Positions 43,473 through 53,696 of a DNA stretch of 53,769 bases are shown here, in pieces. The notes under the pieces were generated by a model that was not told the DNA's origin, made no database searches, and saw only the letters and a list, made by a program, of their open reading frames with translations. The stretch lies in assembly GCA_946804195.1 (NCBI GenBank), contig CAMPEU010000011.1:1-53769 (forward strand), in the 5' to 3' direction. The position numbers were made by a program, and so were the translations under genes. Within the stretch, counting starts at the first letter, position 1, and the number at the start of each line of letters is the position of its first letter. The DNA is from an uncultured Candidatus Saccharibacteria bacterium (GTDB lineage Bacteria > Patescibacteriota > Saccharimonadia > Saccharimonadales > Saccharimonadaceae).

Positions 43473-45971
43473 CTACTTGTAGAACGGATCTTCACTTGAT
43501 GATGTAGGTGGTGTTTGTTGCTGACCAACCACCGGAGGTTCCTGTCCGCCCGGTTGCGTTGACCCCTGGGTTGTATTTGGTACCGAGGGTGCAGTAGTGG
43601 GGTTATACGTAGCTTGGGGCTGTATAGGGGACGTGGATGGAGTTTCGGCACCATAATGGCCAACCTGCAGCATACTAATGCGGCGCTTGTGTAATCGATA
43701 AAATACCGTCAACAAGCCAGTTGCTAAGATGAGTGACACCAGAGAAACAATCATCACAAACTGCAATTGATTCATGAATGAGGTATCTTTTTCACTGCCC
43801 TGCAAACTAATCGATAACTCCTTTGATGGTGTCGCCCAACGATTAAACCTGTATGAATTGCCGGCTGTGCTAAACGAGCTTGTACTCGCCGAATAATTAG
43901 AGGCTAGGAACTGATCAGCGCCATCACGCCACTGTGTCGCCAAATTACCGCCAGTGTCGAGCGTAATATTACTTTGTTCGACAAGGTTTAATAATTCAGA
44001 TGCCGAACGAATAGTTCCACCGGCAAAACATTGTTGATCTGGGCAATAAAGCAATCCATATACCGCAAATCCTATCAACTCACCGTTACTATTAAATACG
44101 GGGGCGCCGTCATTGCCGGGCAAGACAGGCTTATCGGTTTGTAACAGTTGCTGCCCATCCTTTTTGTATGCCTGATCAACCTTGCTAACCGTAGCGACCG
44201 GCAAATCACGTACTCCATCAACCGTCAGAGTACTATCGGTGTATGCCGTAAAGCCAATCGTACTCACAACATCATCCGACTGTGTTGTCTCTTGTTGTGC
44301 TATAGGAACGCTAGGAAAGCTACCTTTGACCTTGAGTAACCCCGTATCACTATCTGGCGTAGTGCTACCGAATACATATTGAACTGCTTTTTCTGCATCA
44401 TAATCAGAGCTAACGTAATCCGCTTCGAGTACGCTATCCGAATACGCAAAGGCGGGTTTTAGCGCATCGTTACGATTAACAACAATTGGCTTATCGGTCG
44501 GCTGAATTGCGTATGTGTATTCCTCTTTGACTGGTGTAATGTAATTGCTTGGAATAATTAATCCAAGGTTTTGTATCTTCGCGAGAGCCTCTTGGTCTCC
44601 CGTTAATGCACCCGTCATAAAGTACTCTGCGTCAGATTCTAAGATAATTTTTGCTTCGAGTAGATAATCAAGAACTCTCTGCAATCGATCCAGCGTTGAC
44701 TCGCGATTAGGAGCAAAGTTTATATACCCATTGATAGCGGCTTTTTTCTGCGTACGAATTGCGTGGCCTGTCGTCGCAATATATCCGTCACTAGATACCA
44801 GTACGCCACTAGCAACATTACCAACACACGCATCTGTGAGCGTCGTTGCTGTTTCTCCATCCTCAAACTTGAGATCCAAATCAGCACAGTACAATGTACC
44901 TACACGAACGACACTCGGCTGTGATTTGGCGATTGACCTTAACGCTGCGCCGTCACTGTAATATTCTGGCGTAATAGTTAGCAGATTCGTTCCGTCGGTA
45001 GAGGCCCCGTCCGTAGTCTTTAATGTCGTCTGCGCGAGGCGCGCTAACGGATACGCATAAGATACATCTTCAGCCTCCGCTTTGCCTGCGGGTGTAATTT
45101 CGGATGCCTGTGGCTGAACAAATACTATAGTGTCAAATACCTGCTCGACGAGACTCGCGGCACTAACGTTAGTCGGACGTACATTACTAATACAGACAGA
45201 GTACGGCTGATCAAACTGAATTGTATAATAACAGTCGTCATACTTGGTGTTGGATATCCGATAATTTTCATTTGTCGTCGTATACCGCACACGCTGGTAT
45301 TCAATATCATTGATCGTCGTATTTGATGGCTTTGTCGCCTCAATAGTCACAAAAGTATTGTCATCTGCGACTTTTTTAGCCGCGCGCTTGTCACCATCTA
45401 ATTTCACAAACAAACTGAGTTTCGACAGGTCTTTATTTTCAGAAAGCTTGGACGCATCATCCAGCTTTTTTGTGCTCATAGTTGCGAACACTTCAAGCTC
45501 GGGAGGAAGTGTAACAAGTGCGCGTGATGATTCGACACTTTCAATCGGCCTAATTCGGGTATAGTTGTACGCTCGCTCCGTACGCAAATCGTTGTTTTCG
45601 TATGTCTGACCAGACAAAACTGCAACACTTTCATCAGTACCCGCCGTGCTATCACCTACTTCGGCGTAACTGGTATATAGCCGATTATCGTAATTAAGTG
45701 AAAAACCGACATCAGATTTTACATTGACACGTTTTAGGGTTTGTTCGGGTGGTTGTAATACATCAGCGAATTTCTGCCTTGCTCCAGCGTCTACCGCGGT
45801 AGTCAGGGGAACAATAAAGAACAACCCGACGCCAACTAAAACGGCCACAATAATTGTGGTTATTAGCGACCATTTCACAATCCGCCCCAGAGGCGACTGA
45901 TGCTGATACACCTTTTGCCGAATGTCCTGGGACTCCTGTGGTATGTAGGGGTTCGTCGACGAATCTTCCAT
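43473..45971 (-). CDS. Membrane-anchored S1C-type (trypsin-like) protein with substituted catalytic serine
   Basis: 832 residues. A cytoplasmic N-terminal tail (1-33), TM1 (about 34-56), a large extracytoplasmic region (about 57-715), TM2 (about 720-742) and a Pro/Thr/Gln-rich cytoplasmic tail. The trypsin-like fold shows ASGVLVSSDGYIATTGHAI (His at 403, as in TAAHC) and VLPGNDGAPVFNSNGELIGF, where the usual GNSGGP serine is Asp 621. The enzyme is probably inactive, perhaps a surface scaffold or binding protein. The starting ATG follows TATAAC by 7 bases. Confidence 0.75.
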   Translation of the reverse strand: MEDSSTNPYIPQESQDIRQKVYQHQSPLGRIVKWSLITTIIVAVLVGVGLFFIVPLTTAVDAGARQKFADVLQPPEQTLKRVNVKSDVGFSLNYDNRLYTSYAEVGDSTAGTDESVAVLSGQTYENNDLRTERAYNYTRIRPIESVESSRALVTLPPELEVFATMSTKKLDDASKLSENKDLSKLSLFVKLDGDKRAAKKVADDNTFVTIEATKPSNTTINDIEYQRVRYTTTNENYRISNTKYDDCYYTIQFDQPYSVCISNVRPTNVSAASLVEQVFDTIVFVQPQASEITPAGKAEAEDVSYAYPLARLAQTTLKTTDGASTDGTNLLTITPEYYSDGAALRSIAKSQPSVVRVGTLYCADLDLKFEDGETATTLTDACVGNVASGVLVSSDGYIATTGHAIRTQKKAAINGYINFAPNRESTLDRLQRVLDYLLEAKIILESDAEYFMTGALTGDQEALAKIQNLGLIIPSNYITPVKEEYTYAIQPTDKPIVVNRNDALKPAFAYSDSVLEADYVSSDYDAEKAVQYVFGSTTPDSDTGLLKVKGSFPSVPIAQQETTQSDDVVSTIGFTAYTDSTLTVDGVRDLPVATVSKVDQAYKKDGQQLLQTDKPVLPGNDGAPVFNSNGELIGFAVYGLLYCPDQQCFAGGTIRSASELLNLVEQSNITLDTGGNLATQWRDGADQFLASNYSASTSSFSTAGNSYRFNRWATPSKELSISLQGSEKDTSFMNQLQFVMIVSLVSLILATGLLTVFYRLHKRRISMLQVGHYGAETPSTSPIQPQATYNPTTAPSVPNTTQGSTQPGGQEPPVVGQQQTPPTSSSEDPFYK

Positions 45972-46041: not shown

Positions 46042-48015
46042 TTATCGCATCTTATTGCGAATTTCAGCGATCATATCACGAAGTTCTGCAGCATGCTCGA
46101 AGTCTAGATTCGCACTTGCAAGATCCATCTGGCCAGTCAAGTCCTTCACGAGGCTTTTATACTCATCTTTAGGAATCTTTTTCAAATCCAGCTTAGGCTT
46201 TTTATCGTCTTTCATCGGAATAATCGCACGAAGACCCTCGCCAATCGCCTTGTTTACGCTCGTTGGAGTAATATTGTGTTCGCTATTGAATTCTTGCTGG
46301 ATATCACGTCGACGATTGGTTTCATCGATAGCCGCCTGCATCGATCGCGTAATCTTATCACCATATAAGAATACCGTACCCTCGACATGACGCGCAGCGC
46401 GACCAATTGTTTGGATTAGCGCACTCTCACTTCGCAAAAAACCTTCTTTGTCGGCATCGATAATCGCAACCATACTCACTTCGGGCAAATCCAACCCTTC
46501 ACGCAAAAGATTAATTCCAACCAAAACATCGTAGACACCGCTACGTAAATCCTTCAAAATATCACCGCGTTCTAACGTGTCGACATCGCTATGAATATAT
46601 GCCGTTTTGATACTCAAATCTTGTAGATACTGGGTGAGGTCTTCAGCCATCCGCTTGGTCAATGTCGTCACTAAGACACGTTGTTTTTTTGCAATTCTCT
46701 CGCGGATTTCTGCAATCAAATCATCAATCTGACCTTTGGTCGGGCGAACAATGATTTGCGGATCAATGAGTCCTGTCGGTCGAATAATTTGCTGCGCTGG
46801 CGCTGGACTATGAGCCAGTTCGTACTCACCCGGTGTCGCCGAGACGTACACTACCTGATTAATATGTTTTTCAAATTCATCAAATCGTAGCGGACGATTA
46901 TCAAGCGCAGAGGGCATTCGAAAGCCGTGTTCTACGAGCACTTCTTTGCGGGCGCGGTCACCATTATACATACCACGTACCTGTGGTAAGGATTGATGGC
47001 TCTCGTCAACGAGCAGTAGCCAGTCATCAGGGAAATAATCGAGTAATGTTGCGGGTTGATCACCTGGCTCACGATTGGTCAAATAACGACTATAGTTTTC
47101 GATACCTTTTACAAATCCTGTTTGCTCTAACATTTCGATGTCATACTTAGTTCGCTGAGCAAGTCGTTGTGCCTCGAGGTGTTTGTCATGTTTTTCGAAC
47201 CATTTCAATCGTTCATCAAACTCTTGCTTGATACCATCAATTGCATGCGCCAGCTTGTCCTTTGGTGTTGCATAATGGCTAGAGGGAAATATTTGTAGCT
47301 CCTGAGGTTCGCTCAAGATTTCACCCGTTAATGGGTCTATACGCGTAATCCTTTCTAGTTCATCACCAAAAAATTCTATGCGATATGCAACATCACTACC
47401 AGCTGGATATACATCAACCACGTCACCTTTAACTCGAAATGTTCCACGAGCAAAATCGATATCATTACGTTTGTATTGAATATCTGTTAATTGTCGAATG
47501 AATTTGTCCTGTAGACGCCGTTCGCCTGTGCGTAATTGAATTGACATACTGGCATAGTCATCAGGATTACCGATACCATAAATACAACTAACACTTGCAA
47601 TAATGATTGTATCGCGTCGTGTCAAAAGTGCTGACGTAGCGGCATGTCGCAACCTATCAATTTCTTCGTTGATCTGACTATCTTTTTCGATATACGTATC
47701 GCTCGATGCAATGTAAGCCTCCGGCTGATAGTAATCAAAATAGCTGACGAAGTAGTGCACTTCACTATCGGGGAAAAACGATTTAAATTCGCTATACAAT
47801 TGAGCGGCGAGTGTTTTGTTATGCACCAAAACAAGTGTTGGAACATTACGCGCGGCAATAATGTTCGCCATTGTGAATGTCTTGCCGCTGCCGGTCACAC
47901 CAAGCAATGTCTGTTCGTGCTCGCCGGCATCTAGACCTTTGAGTAATTGAGCAATAGCCGCTGGCTGATCGCCTGTCGGTTGATAATTTGTCTCTAGTCG
48001 AAACTCCTGACTCAT
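46042..48015 (-). CDS. uvrB: Excinuclease ABC subunit B
   Basis: 657 residues. Walker A GVTGSGKT is at 39-46; the beta-hairpin segment ([19 protein letters not shown]) follows. Helicase motifs [11 protein letters not shown] and [12 protein letters not shown] are intact, and the C terminus ends in the UVR motif ([16 protein letters not shown]) that binds UvrC. It verifies DNA damage in nucleotide excision repair. The ATG is 6 bases after an extended -10. Confidence 0.97.
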
Positions 48016-48046: not shown

Positions 48047-48166
48047 CTAACCTGTTACCGTGTCATAAAACGTCGGTGCATCCGCCGGGGACTCCGTCAC
48101 GCTGTCACTCTCACGCAATGTATGAATAACGGGGGACGTATTTTCAAAACTGCAACCTATGACTCC
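48047..48166 (-). pseudogene. Possible coding remnant after the tail-fibre-like gene
   Basis: A frame offset from the tail-fibre reading frame is open for about 39 codons and ends at TAG (48047-48049). Its translation, containing TLRESDSVTESPADAPTFYD, looks like real protein rather than random sequence. There is no ATG or ribosome site. It could be the remnant of another surface gene, or a frame-shifted tail. Support is weak. Confidence 0.25.
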
Positions 48167-51100
48167 AAGTTAACTGTTAAGACGTCCCACTTTGAATCGG
48201 TAACATTATATCTCGCACCAATATACATGGTTTTGTTTATGACGGTTGTTGTCGGTAGCGTCACACCAATTGCTCGCCACGATGCTCCCCAGGTAATGGC
48301 CCTCGCCGTACCGTTATCTTTGATGCGAATGAGAATTGATTGTCCGTCACTAGGTGTCCCACTCAAATTACTCGATAAGGATGTAATGTCGGTTGCTAGC
48401 GCCGTAATATTGTATTGGTCGTAGTCGTCGGTATTAATAGACGGCGTTGCTGAACTAGTAGTTGAACCGACCCGAGCGGTGATGCTCTTATTAGTTAGGA
48501 CATCGGTTGAGGTACGAGAAACAATTGTATCCGTTGTTGGTGCTGGGAGGGTCAGATTTTGTGGAGCCGCTGATGAAGAATTTTGAATAATTTTCGCATT
48601 ATAGCTACTGCCCTGAATATATAAATTAGTTGTGTTTAATGTATAAATGTTGGTATTGCCATTACCACCGAATACTGGTCTGAACTGTATATCCGTTGCG
48701 CCCCATGTAAATGCAGCATTGCCAGAACTAGGGTCTAAAATGTGCCACAAAGTCTGATCGCTCCACCCGGAGGTGCCCTGCGACCAAACAAATAACCCCG
48801 TTGGATTGACCGATCCCGACATGTCCGACGAGCGGGACAGGCTAAGATTGGTGATATTATCAGTAACGGTATAGATGCCATTAGCTGGCTGTGCGGTAGT
48901 GGTATATGACGACCCAACCCCAGTAGACGCCGGGGCGTTGATAATTAGTATGCGATCACCTATAGCAGGTGCGTACCCGCCATTAACGGTTGTACCGGCT
49001 ATCTGCGAAACTGTGCCCGATACGATTGTGAAGGTTTCAGAACCTAGAGCAACTGCCTGAACAGGTTCAAGCATACCGCTGACACCCCCGGAAGGAGCCG
49101 ACCATGTACCGTCACCACGAAGGTAGGTACTACTAGACGGTGCACCTGTCACAGCCGGTATGCCGGTTACAGATGAAATGATAGGATTACCACCAGCTTT
49201 AACGACACCCGTACCTTGCGTAATCAAGTTCAAGTCATGATTTGTATCCGCGCCACCCGCATGTAGCGTTGGGGTTTGGCCAGAATCAGCGTAAATAGTG
49301 ACTGATCCAGCACCTTTTGGATAGAGTACTAATCCAATATCGCTATCACTACCGGCCGCCTTAAGCTCAGGAGATGCCCCCGATGTTCCATATAGCGAGC
49401 CACCACCACGTGGGAGGAATGTGCCCGATGCTAGTGACGAATCATAACCCACAACATACATTTGTGTAATTCGAAAATTACCTGTCGTGATAAAATTCGA
49501 CAATGTAAAGCGTATTTTGCTAAACCCGTTAGCCCCATCATAACTTCCGCTATCATAAGCGCCCGCCCAATGATGACCCGACTCCTCATCGGTCGCTGAA
49601 TAAAGACTAATCCATGTTGTCGCTATTGGATCATAGATTTCTATGACAACATCTTTTGCTGTACACCAAGGCGTCATAACGATACCAATAGTCGCTCCCC
49701 AATTAAAAGTCCTGTGATTAGTCACCTCCACAACAACTACATCAGTAGCGGCATTGGCGAGACTAAAGGATTGTGCTGTTGTGGCATCCGGTAAGAACGG
49801 ATTCTCATTGCCGGTCGGGGTAGCAGGGGCGGCATTTAATGTGTAAGAGACCGATCCGCCGCGCTGGCTATTGTACGCAATATCATTAACGATGTGTGGG
49901 AGTGTATTAAAACCACTTGACTCCGGATGCAGGTCTAGCGTGGTGCCATATAGCAAGGTGCCAGATTGCGTGTTCAATACAGGTATATCACTTGCCGTGG
50001 CGACTTTTACGCCGTTGGCCTGTACAACTCCCGTACCCTTAGTCACTAGATTCAAGTTAACGTCCGAACTCGACCCGTTTGCAGAGAAATTCGCAGTGCT
50101 GTTTGAGCCAGCGAACATCGTTACATGACCCGTTCCTTTTGGTTTCAACGTTAAGTTTATGTTCGTATCGCTACCATTTGCATTAAGTTGTATATAGCCA
50201 TCACCGGAGGGTGAAGTCTCAATGCCAAGGTAGTTGACCGCTGAGGAGCTCCAGGAATCATTTGATATTAGCGGATTATCGTTGGAATCCAAGATTGAAT
50301 CACTGAGATTAGGATAACTGAGAGTTTTATTGGTGAGAGTTTGTGTGCCGGAAATTGTAGTAACCTCGGTGCCGTTGGCCTGAACGACACCAGTACCCTT
50401 GGTTAGGAGGTTCAGATATACATTTGTATCCGTACCCGATGCTCCTACCACCGCACCATTACCGGTATCTGTACCCATAGTATAGATATAATTGACTGCA
50501 CTTGCACTCTGCTGACGTGTCTGGAACATATAATTACCATCACCGGAGAAAACGTTAAGACTACCTGAGCCCTTAGAATAAAGACTCATGCTAACATCGC
50601 TATCGGAACCATCAGTCTTTATATTTGCACCATAGCCTGTTGCCCCATTTTCTATTCTTAAATAGTTCACAGCGCCAGCACCTGAGTACGTATCAAATAT
50701 CGTATTACCGTTGCTGTCTTTTATAAGTGGTGATTCAAGAGTTTTGTTAGAGAGAGTTTGCGTAGATGTAACATCGACAACCCGCTCTCCAAACGCAGTT
50801 ACACCATTGGAGCTAACGTTATTAATGGATCCCGAAGGAACGGCCGACTGCCAATTGGAATTTGTATTGTAGGTCAGCGTACTACCACTACCTATTCGTT
50901 TGGACAATTCATAGATATTGAAGCCACCGTAATCGTCCCCCTTCTTCATCCACAGCTGCATATCAGAAGACCATCCGTCACTGATAACCTTAAAGGAATC
51001 ATTGTCGATTAGATAACCACCGCCACCTTTGGCGATAATATCGACATCTACGTCCGGGGTTTGACCGGTACTGTTTGCACGAAAGAACACTGAGATGATT

Positions 51101-52923
51101 GCTGAATCATGGTTACCCGTAGAGGCGCTTGAGACGCTAAGAACCAATGAACAATCCGTATACTGGGTTGTTCCTGTACTAAACGTTGCAATCTGCGCCC
51201 ACGTATCCGCACCGTTCTCGGTACCCGAAGAGCCGCTTGCAGTGGAAGCGACTAACTTAGATATGTCATCAGGAGCTGTGACGATCTCGATGCCGTTAAC
51301 CTTAACTATACCGGCACCCTTCGTAACCAAGTCTAGGTCAATATCCGTATCAGACCCATCTGTTCCAAGTCTTGCTGCGTCACCAGTTGCTGCATTCTCG
51401 GCATACAGATAATTAACCGCGCTAGCACTGCCCTGATATGCTTCAAATATACGATTGCCACTTTCGGAATACAGAAGAACGGAGCCACTCCCCTTACTAT
51501 AAAGATCTAGGCTCAGATTAGTATCGGAACCGGCGGCCTGGATCCAAGGTGAGTTACCGGTCGCGCCAGTACCTATTTGAAGATAATTCACAGAGCTGGA
51601 ATACGACTGAGTATCGAGAAGGATATTATCATAGCCGTCTAGTATTTGTGCAATTTTTGGTGTGGTCAGCGTCTTATTCGTCAACGTCTGAGTCGCAGTT
51701 AATCCAACAAGCTGTTCGGATACGCCAGCTGGATCATAGGTTGAAGCCTCCATGTCGCCAGTACTAGCATTTGCATCAACGTAGGCTTTAATGCTTTGTT
51801 GCGTGGCAAGCTTGGTCGCGGAATCACTTGCCATGTTGTCTTCGTCGAGGATTGCGGTACCACTAACACCCGTGTTGAGGATTGGTGAGGTGAGGGTTTT
51901 ATTGGTGAGGGTCTGGGTATTCGTTGTGCCAACGCTTGCTCCGGTAGCACCGTGAGCCGTGGTGCTGTTTTCATGATCGTATGCCCAGTTTGAAGATATA
52001 GGAGCAGACGTCTCGCCATCCACGGCGATATCATCAATATCGGTAATGTATGATATAACGGATGTATCAGTCAGGTCGGTCGAGGCTCCAGTAACTTCTG
52101 CACCAATGGCGAGATTAGTAATCGTGTTGTTATCTGCATCGAGGGTTTTATTCGTTAATATCTGCGCATCTGTCCTGCCAACGAAATCGCTCGATGGGAG
52201 CGTAAGAGAGTTTACTGTACCTAAGCCTGATATATTATCGGAATCATCAATTGATACACCTGTGCCCTGAACACCTTTTGAACCACCATCTCCTCTGACG
52301 ATAGCGTGGTCCGTGATTGACAGAGTTGATGATACATTGCCACTCCCTAAACTTGAGTCAACGTACGCTTTGATGCTTTGTTGCGTGGCGAGCTTGGTTG
52401 CCGAATTACTTACCATATCGTCTTCGTCAAGGATTGCCGAACCACTGACGCCAATATTCAAGATAGGTGCTGTAAGGGTTTTGCTAGAGAGGGTTTGGGG
52501 TGTATTTATTGATACTATCGTGGATGGAAATGTTGGAGTGCCTCCTAGTGTGTAGGAGCCAGTAACCGTACCCGATAGCACCGGACTAGCGATTGTCTTG
52601 TTTGATAACGTCGATATTGCACTGTTTTTTACCGCATCGCTTGTGTTATCAACACTTCCCAGCCCGACATCTGATTTAGTAAGAACAATATCGCCAGTCC
52701 GAGATGAAACGGAAGTAACCGAAGATGCGCCTGTGGTAGAATTGAGCTTTGCTCGAACGTCGGCAGTAAGTTTTGTCTCTTCGATAGTGTTGTCTACGAG
52801 AGCGTAATTCGTGACAGTGTTTTGCCCGAGAGTACCGTCAGCCTCAAGAGTCTGAGAAAGATATTCATTGAGGATATCCCCCCATGTGCCGTTATCGTTG
52901 CCTGGTATCGGAAGACGAGGCAT
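48157..52923 (-). CDS. Giant phage-tail-fibre-like repeat protein (1588 residues)
   Basis: Opens MPRLPIPGNDNGTWGDILNEYL, then a classic tail-fibre segment (SVSSRTGDIVLTKSDVGLG at 71-89). QTLTNKTL-type motifs occur at least seven times. Three modules end in KGTGVV-x-NG and carry GSDTN and AVNYL motifs (about residues 408-545, 719-851, 859-973), with a partial fourth at 1177-1250. Non-repeated domains lie at about 548-715 and 980-1175. An LRGDGTWSAPSGG linker (near 1263) leads to an ANGIYTVTDN-type domain and a C-terminal RIKDNGTARAITWGASW motif. No signal peptide or membrane anchor is visible. Product is likely a fibrous binding protein. Confidence 0.8.
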   Translation of the reverse strand: MPRLPIPGNDNGTWGDILNEYLSQTLEADGTLGQNTVTNYALVDNTIEETKLTADVRAKLNSTTGASSVTSVSSRTGDIVLTKSDVGLGSVDNTSDAVKNSAISTLSNKTIASPVLSGTVTGSYTLGGTPTFPSTIVSINTPQTLSSKTLTAPILNIGVSGSAILDEDDMVSNSATKLATQQSIKAYVDSSLGSGNVSSTLSITDHAIVRGDGGSKGVQGTGVSIDDSDNISGLGTVNSLTLPSSDFVGRTDAQILTNKTLDADNNTITNLAIGAEVTGASTDLTDTSVISYITDIDDIAVDGETSAPISSNWAYDHENSTTAHGATGASVGTTNTQTLTNKTLTSPILNTGVSGTAILDEDNMASDSATKLATQQSIKAYVDANASTGDMEASTYDPAGVSEQLVGLTATQTLTNKTLTTPKIAQILDGYDNILLDTQSYSSSVNYLQIGTGATGNSPWIQAAGSDTNLSLDLYSKGSGSVLLYSESGNRIFEAYQGSASAVNYLYAENAATGDAARLGTDGSDTDIDLDLVTKGAGIVKVNGIEIVTAPDDISKLVASTASGSSGTENGADTWAQIATFSTGTTQYTDCSLVLSVSSASTGNHDSAIISVFFRANSTGQTPDVDVDIIAKGGGGYLIDNDSFKVISDGWSSDMQLWMKKGDDYGGFNIYELSKRIGSGSTLTYNTNSNWQSAVPSGSINNVSSNGVTAFGERVVDVTSTQTLSNKTLESPLIKDSNGNTIFDTYSGAGAVNYLRIENGATGYGANIKTDGSDSDVSMSLYSKGSGSLNVFSGDGNYMFQTRQQSASAVNYIYTMGTDTGNGAVVGASGTDTNVYLNLLTKGTGVVQANGTEVTTISGTQTLTNKTLSYPNLSDSILDSNDNPLISNDSWSSSAVNYLGIETSPSGDGYIQLNANGSDTNINLTLKPKGTGHVTMFAGSNSTANFSANGSSSDVNLNLVTKGTGVVQANGVKVATASDIPVLNTQSGTLLYGTTLDLHPESSGFNTLPHIVNDIAYNSQRGGSVSYTLNAAPATPTGNENPFLPDATTAQSFSLANAATDVVVVEVTNHRTFNWGATIGIVMTPWCTAKDVVIEIYDPIATTWISLYSATDEESGHHWAGAYDSGSYDGANGFSKIRFTLSNFITTGNFRITQMYVVGYDSSLASGTFLPRGGGSLYGTSGASPELKAAGSDSDIGLVLYPKGAGSVTIYADSGQTPTLHAGGADTNHDLNLITQGTGVVKAGGNPIISSVTGIPAVTGAPSSSTYLRGDGTWSAPSGGVSGMLEPVQAVALGSETFTIVSGTVSQIAGTTVNGGYAPAIGDRILIINAPASTGVGSSYTTTAQPANGIYTVTDNITNLSLSRSSDMSGSVNPTGLFVWSQGTSGWSDQTLWHILDPSSGNAAFTWGATDIQFRPVFGGNGNTNIYTLNTTNLYIQGSSYNAKIIQNSSSAAPQNLTLPAPTTDTIVSRTSTDVLTNKSITARVGSTTSSATPSINTDDYDQYNITALATDITSLSSNLSGTPSDGQSILIRIKDNGTARAITWGASWRAIGVTLPTTTVINKTMYIGARYNVTDSKWDVLTVNLES
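51779..51918. repeat. 140-base direct repeat within the tail-fibre-like gene, copy 2
   Basis: Highly similar to 52361-52500 at an exact offset of 582 bases. Encodes LATQQSIKAYVD and the GVSG-x-AILDED segments near residues 336-382. Confidence 0.8.
52361..52500. repeat. 140-base direct repeat within the tail-fibre-like gene, copy 1
   Basis: Partner of 51779-51918. Most differences look like silent or conservative changes, so the protein repeat (residues 142-188) is maintained. Confidence 0.8.
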
Positions 52924-53123
52924 CAGAAAATAAACCCTAATACATCAAGGGATGATGACGCATAAGTCTGACTACTGTATAGTCTGACTCTTAATTCATT
53001 CTGCGTTGATTTGTTCATTATTACTAATCGCCTGCAGAGTCCCCTCACTTATGTTACTAGGTATAGTTTATAGCATGAGGGGTATAGAGGTCAATAAAGG
53101 TCAATATGCAGCCCGAGTCTTGA
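52924..53123. other. Structured 200-base intergenic region before the tail-fibre-like gene
   Basis: No coding sequence seen. It holds a direct repeat AGTCTGACT (52965-52973 and 52981-52989), a 7-base inverted repeat CCCCTCA/TGAGGGG (53041-53047 and 53076-53082), and a doubled GGTCAATA near 53090. No T-tract follows the hairpin, so it is not a standard terminator. A TATACA-type -10 on the minus strand could drive the downstream gene. No clear Shine-Dalgarno site precedes the ATG at 52923. Confidence 0.5.
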
Positions 53124-53696
53124 TTATTTATAGTGAGCGCTCAGCAAAATTGCCTTTGCCTGTTGAAAACTTGCCTTTTTAAATTGTGCATTTGCTTCTT
53201 TAACCGTTGCGTAGGGTTTCGCCTCGACTTCTGTCGGCGAGCTTCCAAATGTGATACTCGCCACATCAAACTTACCCAAGTACCTACCGGGCATATAACC
53301 AAGCAGTGATAAACCGCCACTCACCCCCTGGAAGGTGTTCTTTGTGGATAGCTGCACGGAGTTATGCAGTACTATGACGGGATGATAGCCGAGTACGGTC
53401 GAAATTATGTCCGGCCCATTACCCACAAATTCCGCCTCCACTTCTGACGTGACTACTTCGCTAACATAAGCCTCATCGGTAGATTTCAAAAGATTACCTT
53501 CTGAATTTCGTGCATCCAACTTTCCGATTTTCAATGCCGGATAAACATTGACTACCGTAACCGGGCCATAGGCTGTTGGACCAACGATGCCCATGGGACC
53601 ATTCCCGGTTGAAAGATGTAAGGCAATATCCTTATCGGGACTCGAAATTGTTAAATTATCCGCGACTACTTGAGCCTCGTTTGATTGTCTAATCAC
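53124..53696 (-). CDS. Protein of unknown function (190 residues) beside the tail-fibre-like gene
   Basis: GTG start at 53696, supported by GGAGG five bases upstream and an in-frame stop before that. The product is soluble, beta-rich and Gly/Val/Thr-rich (TGNGPMGIVGPTAYGPVTVVNV, NTFQGVSGGLSLLGYMPG) with a C-terminal helix of Lys, Ala and Gln. No signal peptide or membrane segment. It is upstream of the tail-fibre-like gene on the same strand, 200 bases apart, so it may be related in function. No family recognised. Confidence 0.65.
   Translation of the reverse strand: MIRQSNEAQVVADNLTISSPDKDIALHLSTGNGPMGIVGPTAYGPVTVVNVYPALKIGKLDARNSEGNLLKSTDEAYVSEVVTSEVEAEFVGNGPDIISTVLGYHPVIVLHNSVQLSTKNTFQGVSGGLSLLGYMPGRYLGKFDVASITFGSSPTEVEAKPYATVKEANAQFKKASFQQAKAILLSAHYK

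Follow-up and report, generated by a model that had tools for sequence, protein, structure and literature searches.

Phage-tail-fibre-like proteins of Saccharimonadia and their candidate export by the Tat system

By what means epibionts among the patescibacteria recognise their hosts and keep hold of them is a central question of the field, and the described systems closest to the protein presented here belong to phages and to the twin-arginine translocation (Tat) pathway. Mycobacteriophage Myrna gp112 and the Gordonia phage minor tail proteins BrutonGaster gp47, Smoothie gp60 and Dardanus gp29 carry a CBM32-like domain of about 190 aa, which is 32-42% identical to a domain of our protein. Phage fibres fold in the cytoplasm. 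The Tat system moves folded proteins, and partners without a signal of their own can hitchhike through it (PMC10924467). One study from 2018 describes its Saccharibacterium as the sole one to possess Tat (PMC6031116). In the papers searched, we found neither Tat nor the small twin-arginine-like protein (SMP) described below connected with fibres.

The window analysed here is a whole contig (C11) of 53,769 nucleotides from a 989-kb, 99.8% complete Saccharibacteria genome (G000, here the source genome). We propose, with a probability of roughly two in three, that its fibre gene encodes a phage-tail-fibre-like host-binding protein of a Saccharimonadia epibiont, which belongs to the cell, is exported by Tat via SMP and is displayed on the surface.

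The fibre gene, its locus and its family

The fibre gene lies at positions 48157 to 52923 on the minus strand and encodes 1588 aa from an ATG at 52923, without an in-frame stop. The initial annotation, which gave no strand, had described a tail-fibre-like protein here, and this is confirmed: the reading frame is intact, the quoted motifs (QTLTNKTL, GTGVV-x-NG, ARAITWGASW and others) are all found in the protein, seven boxes of the type TL[TS][NS]KTL are present and the composition (13% Ser, 13% Thr, 10.5% Gly, two Cys) is fibre-like. As had also been stated, a signal peptide is absent; no hydrophobic stretch was found in residues 1-60, and the protein has no transmembrane segment. Phage-fibre sequence domains were detected by PHROGs and tblastn searches. 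The PHROGs matches were phrog_33513 (2.7e-38), phrog_3030 (5e-38) and phrog_13892, 'minor tail protein' (2e-32), with residues 987-1180 falling to minor-tail families and residues 1469-1587 to phrog_3030. A Pfam scan of the protein gave nothing above cut-off and no sequence relatives were found in the PDB.

All features of the protein are encoded on the minus strand. It begins with an N-terminal module of 37 residues (52813-52923; E 1.5e-21 here), which defines the family and in which R L P D W G L L is invariant over 21 proteins. The phage-fibre spacer SVTSVSSRTGDIVLTKSDVGLGSVDNTSDAVKN follows at residues ~66-100 (52624-52728); strings of the same type occur in Alice gp108 and other phage fibres. 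Repeats L1 (residues 139-195; 52339-52509) and L2 (residues 333-388; 51760-51927) share 39 of 49 positions, with an alignment score of 194 against a shuffle maximum of 47, and residues 95-390 also match Pelagibacter phage structural proteins. Shaft modules M1 (residues 405-552; 51268-51711) and M2 (residues 715-860; 50344-50781) are identical at 70 of 145 positions (score 340, shuffle maximum 66), and pairwise alignment revealed a third copy, M3, at residues 855-975 (49999-50361) and a partial fourth, M4, at residues 1180-1250 (49174-49386). A BLAST self-comparison displayed no repeats, whereas pairwise alignment with shuffles did; the long modules, of which at least three had been claimed, are genuine repeats scoring far above shuffled sequences. 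The domain at residues 553-722 (50758-51267) has relatives in congeners, with 49-50% identity in G008 and G005, and no match in the phages searched. Two tip domains, at residues ~984-1180 (49384-49974) and 1469-1588 (48160-48519), are discussed below.

The next gene downstream is uvrB (46042-48015, minus strand; 84-91% identity in seven congeners), as the initial annotation had it. It is followed in most congeners compared, as in the window (43473-45971), by the gene for a protein of 832 aa that contains a trypsin-like protease domain and appears to have membrane segments at its two ends. Upstream of the fibre gene, a 31-aa reading frame on the same strand (52923-53018), possibly a mere leader and without any relatives found, overlaps the fibre ATG with its TGA. 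By eye, a promoter-like TTGACC - 16 bp - TATAAA is visible on the minus strand at 53067-53094. Further upstream lies a remnant of a conserved gene that precedes uvrB in several congeners (53124-53696, minus strand; 52% identity to the G008 protein). Compared with its relatives of 272-273 aa, it is short of ~80 residues at the N-terminus, and a stop codon in the same frame lies shortly before it, which reflects either a truncated gene or an error at the contig end.

Since the contig ends at 53769, the surroundings beyond were judged through the synteny of congeners. A fibre gene upstream of uvrB was found in none of the seven compared, and housekeeping genes lie beyond. In G008 (91% UvrB identity), for instance, the gene of the 273-aa relative stands a few tens of bases before uvrB and is preceded by metabolic genes. 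As the locus is free of fibres in all seven congeners, the fibre gene of the source genome is a lone accessory insertion. In G006, two ABC transporter genes occupy the corresponding position before uvrB (L200:7858-9709), so that the site seems to tolerate insertions. A PHROGs scan of 40 other window proteins detected no structural phage gene among the 25 of 60 families listed, which were housekeeping or without a named function. The view that the fibre has no prophage neighbours is thus borne out in the window and, by synteny with seven congeners, just outside it. Together with the neighbours of 56 related genes, these comparisons place the fibre gene outside any phage structural gene cluster.

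The lone phage-derived fibre initially envisaged has to be replaced by a multi-copy family with its own N-terminal module, RLPxPGxDxGxWGDILNxYL, of ~37 aa. This family is undescribed. Its fixed N-terminus is combined with swappable phage-fibre-like bodies and tips: what a 2775-aa paralog on contig C8 of the source genome and the relatives from 24 of 101 genomes have in common is chiefly their first ~37 residues. A profile search detected the module in 78 of 295 Saccharimonadia genomes; a single genome may have as many as 20 scattered copies, and the proteins range from <100 to 2800 aa in length. PHROGs matches of the module proteins are above all to minor tail, tail fibre and tail spike families, and 56 of the proteins lack an N-terminal hydrophobic segment. 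The 56 module genes studied stand singly or in small groups between housekeeping genes. Among 25 of 74 PHROGs families listed for 72 of their neighbours we found no capsid, terminase, portal or tape-measure gene; these families include a few minor-tail or fibre-like genes and integrases. Clustering revealed no constant neighbour gene unrelated to Tat. At the C8 locus (L006, 1009-12711), three type IV pilin genes are followed by the 2775-aa fibre and then by a Gly-rich protein that matches the phage minor tail family phrog_754 (E 5e-42). A fixed association of module genes with type IV pilins was rejected, as it is confined to this and a few other loci.

In viruses the module is rare: a search with a narrow pattern detected it in 8 of 2.9 million viral contigs, and of 50,697 phage records two, both of one phage, contain it. 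Three viral contigs (L067, L069, L071) come from unrelated tailed phages, of which one has sheath genes and one is podovirus-like; in each, the module stands at the N-terminus of a tail-region protein. The module thus also serves as a phage-fibre N-terminus. Judged from sequence, it belongs chiefly to patescibacteria, and the fibre shares its tips and body modules with actinophages. The initial idea of a derivation from a phage is thus only half right. For the transfer of module or tips between phages and patescibacteria, our data would favour neither direction.

Tip domains and the likely host

The domain at residues ~984-1180 is presumed to bind a receptor, given its phage relatives and its fold. 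All 43 of its phage matches belong to Gordonia or Mycobacterium phages; no viral contig with the 190-aa domain was found by single-sequence search, and three isolate phages with relatives were recovered using phage queries. An AlphaFold2 model, whose core mostly reaches a pLDDT of about 80-90, suggests a discoidin/CBM32-like sandwich, as is often seen in domains that bind glycans. The model resembles chitosan-binding modules in Foldseek (E 1.5e-5) and VIA (Z 11.0, with an rmsd of 3.0 across 126 aa), but sequence identity is ~10% and Pfam gave no match.

The C-terminal 118 aa are 54% identical to gp108 of cluster C mycobacteriophages, and a confident beta fold is predicted for the last ~105 residues only. 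Relatives of this tip occur in 359 environmental viral contigs. It is therefore no indicator of the host, and its use as a marker for mycolata was rejected. Among the matches to the C-termini of 24 other module proteins, actinophages predominate, with counts that are inflated by redundant phage records.

The source genome also contains two tandem genes of the endo-D-arabinanase family DUF4185 (C1:15186-17454), which is rare, being present in 8 of 101 relatives. DUF4185 genes occur in three of the five genomes with the tip domain, against 7 of 80 overall, a suggestive but weak link (p 0.004, or 0.027 when the source genome is left out). The family was shown to cleave mycobacterial D-arabinan, and Ca. 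Mycosynbacter amalyticus, which lives on Gordonia as an epibiont, is reported to possess it (PMC10115798). Because the phage relatives of the tip domain come only from Gordonia and Mycobacterium phages and two DUF4185 genes are present, a mycolic-acid actinobacterium is a plausible host. That the protein is a host-recognition fibre of an epibiont, as initially suggested, may well be so, although we infer it rather than observe it.

A candidate export route through Tat

A reading frame upstream of several module genes encodes SMP, a single-pass protein of 64-72 aa with the motif [DST]-R-[KRQ]-[DE]-F-L-K before a hydrophobic segment and a GYGxxxYG-type motif at the C-terminus. The first Arg and the FL[K]-type residues are kept in 45 of 46 sequences and the C-terminal motif in 43; the second position of the Tat motif is Lys in 28 of the 46, Gln in 7 and Arg (giving Arg-Arg) in 6. 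SMP matches the NCBIfam model NF038009 (TatB_1), 'twin-arginine translocation system-associated protein', and is of the same family or close kin. The match reaches 139.5 bits in G181 (curated cut-off 100); many SMPs score below the cut-off, among them the two of the source genome (33.8 and 56.5 bits), and one SMP is also above the TIGR01409 cut-off. By its name, NF038009 shows that the SMP-Tat half of the link is already known to annotators, and in the papers searched we found neither one on this family nor a link from it to fibres. In at least 13 genomes, a fibre gene follows closely after the SMP gene. In G251 (L262:6197-7438), its N-terminal and transmembrane part is fused to a fibre-like body that lacks the N-terminal module. 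Two further likely fusions, at G169 C3:110039 and G287 C72:43343, were seen only as long open frames. Motifs resembling the SMP C-terminus also occur elsewhere near Tat genes: YGxGxYG in surface-like proteins on the opposite strand beside tatA (L250 4683-4946, L253 8123-8416, L281 451-1194), and similar motifs in a protein of 185 aa ('PFGQGxFGADVPFGS') that G000 and G009 encode near tatC.

Since the SMP N-terminus resembles a Tat signal, co-occurrence with TatC was predicted before the search result was seen. Among the 295 Saccharimonadia genomes, the module was detected in 78, SMP in 75 and TatC (above cut-off) in 79; 73 have all three and 213 none. SMP and TatC occur together in 75 genomes, TatC without SMP in 4, SMP without TatC in 0 and neither in 216 (p 6.5e-66). 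For module and TatC, the counts are 75 with both, 3 with the module only, 4 with TatC only and 213 with neither (p 4.7e-61); these and all other p-values given here were computed without regard to phylogeny. Five module-bearing genomes have no detected SMP. The pattern extends into genera: in g8, g16, g18, g27, g36 and g38, the members that lack the module lack TatC as well. Outside Saccharimonadia, TatC was found in 6 of 6 module-bearing and 4 of 59 module-free sampled genomes (p 2.5e-6).

The genes are also physically linked. SMP and tatC are no more than 1.5 kb apart in 55 of 79 genomes. The arrangement tatA-tatC-SMP, with hrcA and grpE nearby, is common and often stands beside lepA. Among genomes of other patescibacterial classes, G618, G533 and G638 have the co-directional order tatA-tatC-SMP-fibre, in which consecutive genes are separated, or overlap, by a few tens of bases, and in G594 SMP adjoins the fibre with TatC just upstream, the set lying within ~1 kb. 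In the source genome, contig C25 carries tatA, tatC and one SMP gene, and contig C22 the other SMP gene; the window fibre gene is not adjacent to tat, and its own coupling with Tat genes is at genome level only. Taken together, co-occurrence and operon structure form a strong genomic link between fibres and Tat. The export route, which was initially called unknown, now has a strong genomic candidate in Tat and its small twin-arginine-like partner.

The model that we propose is as follows. The fibres would fold in the cytoplasm like those of phages, and their N-terminal module would bind SMP. The folded fibres, without a signal peptide of their own, would then cross the Tat pore as hitchhikers on SMP, the signal-bearing partner. 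SMP would remain as membrane anchor with its GYGxxxYG C-terminus outside, so that the fibre is displayed and its tip domains can bind glycans of the host surface. The model agrees with what is known from other systems: Tat exports folded proteins, hitchhiking occurs and phage fibres fold in the cytoplasm. The weak points are the size of the trimer, the mostly Arg-Lys motif and the handful of exceptions among the genomes: a folded trimer of the 1588-aa fibre would have ~480 kDa, to our knowledge far above the size of Tat substrates. Moreover, a few tailed phages carry the module but no SMP in the part of their sequence that was read, so that the module may do without binding SMP.

An unlikely alternative, to which the size of the fibre lends some weight, keeps the surface adhesin but takes Tat and SMP for mere lifestyle genes that are inherited along with it, for example to export some other substrate that these lineages require. 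The fibres would then leave through type IV pili, through a T4SS-like system or when part of the cells lyse. The genes for type IV pili and T4SS are present in Saccharibacteria (PMC12206443, PMC10633639), and the C8 fibre lies just downstream of the three pilin genes. However, pilins flank module genes at few loci, whereas the tatA-tatC-SMP-fibre operons in other classes, the position of SMP directly upstream of fibre genes, the SMP-fibre fusion and the matched presence and absence within genera indicate a direct link.

It is rather improbable, too, that SMP is a TatB-like subunit of the translocase instead of a fibre partner and that the module itself acts as an unusual Tat signal. The family name TatB_1, the place of SMP after tatC in the operon and genomes with one SMP for 15-20 fibres would suit this reading. 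In TatB, however, a hydrophobic stretch comes first and an amphipathic helix follows, whereas SMP has the order of a Tat signal anchor, with the Arg motif before the hydrophobic stretch. In addition, SMP is duplicated beside fibre genes, G251 has the fusion described above, and a hydrophobic segment is absent from the module. A relic of a prophage or satellite, meaning a tail-fibre gene left by, or a cassette kept for, Saccharibacteria phages, would fit the phage-like tips and shaft modules and the module in tail genes of true phage contigs, but it is very improbable and largely refuted by synteny and neighbour scans, given intact fibre genes in up to 20 copies per genome amid housekeeping genes, no head, terminase or tail-tube families near module genes among the matches listed, a congener locus without phage genes and a near-perfect TatC/SMP co-occurrence that phage decay would leave unexplained.

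If Tat-dependent display via SMP is true, candidate determinants of host range could be recognised in genome sequences as members of this fibre family, and some tiny genomes would have a reason to keep Tat. The fibres would also be a Tat cargo unlike the known enzymes, and predators and phages would share receptor-binding domains for the same prey. A wider proposition, which we regard as evenly balanced, is that some patescibacteria keep Tat chiefly to display virus-type fibres via one anchor protein, with interchangeable pre-folded fibres deciding the host and tips common to phages of the same host kind.

Comparison with known systems

The nearest phage proteins share parts of the fibre. Myrna gp112 has two copies of the CBM32-like domain and similar spacer sequences but not the N-terminal module, and, like the Gordonia minor tail proteins, it is encoded in a virion tail cluster without a link to Tat. 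Bixzunavirus (cluster C) gp108, for example Alice gp108, has in common the C-terminal 118 aa and the KxxVGLGSVDNTSDAxKN spacer; unlike the fibre, Alice gp108 is a 272-aa phage protein without N-terminal module or shafts. Among cellular systems, saccharibacterial type IV pilus adhesins such as PilX2 (PMC12206443) have a proposed role in first host contact, as we suggest for the fibre. Pilins, however, have a class III signal and a transmembrane helix, and a search of the fibre for such a signal with an N-terminal helix found neither. The Tat hitchhikers hydrogenase-2 and PaoABC (PMC10924467, PMC4273604) combine a signal-less cargo with a twin-arginine-type partner encoded beside it, to which SMP with its mostly Arg-Lys motif would correspond, and the likeness includes Tat genes in the same operon. 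In contrast to them, the partner here would be a signal anchor of ~70 aa without a folded domain, seemingly one for many cargoes. Whereas the known hitchhiking cargoes are cofactor enzymes, the cargo proposed here is a fibre, a candidate on the evidence of its genes.
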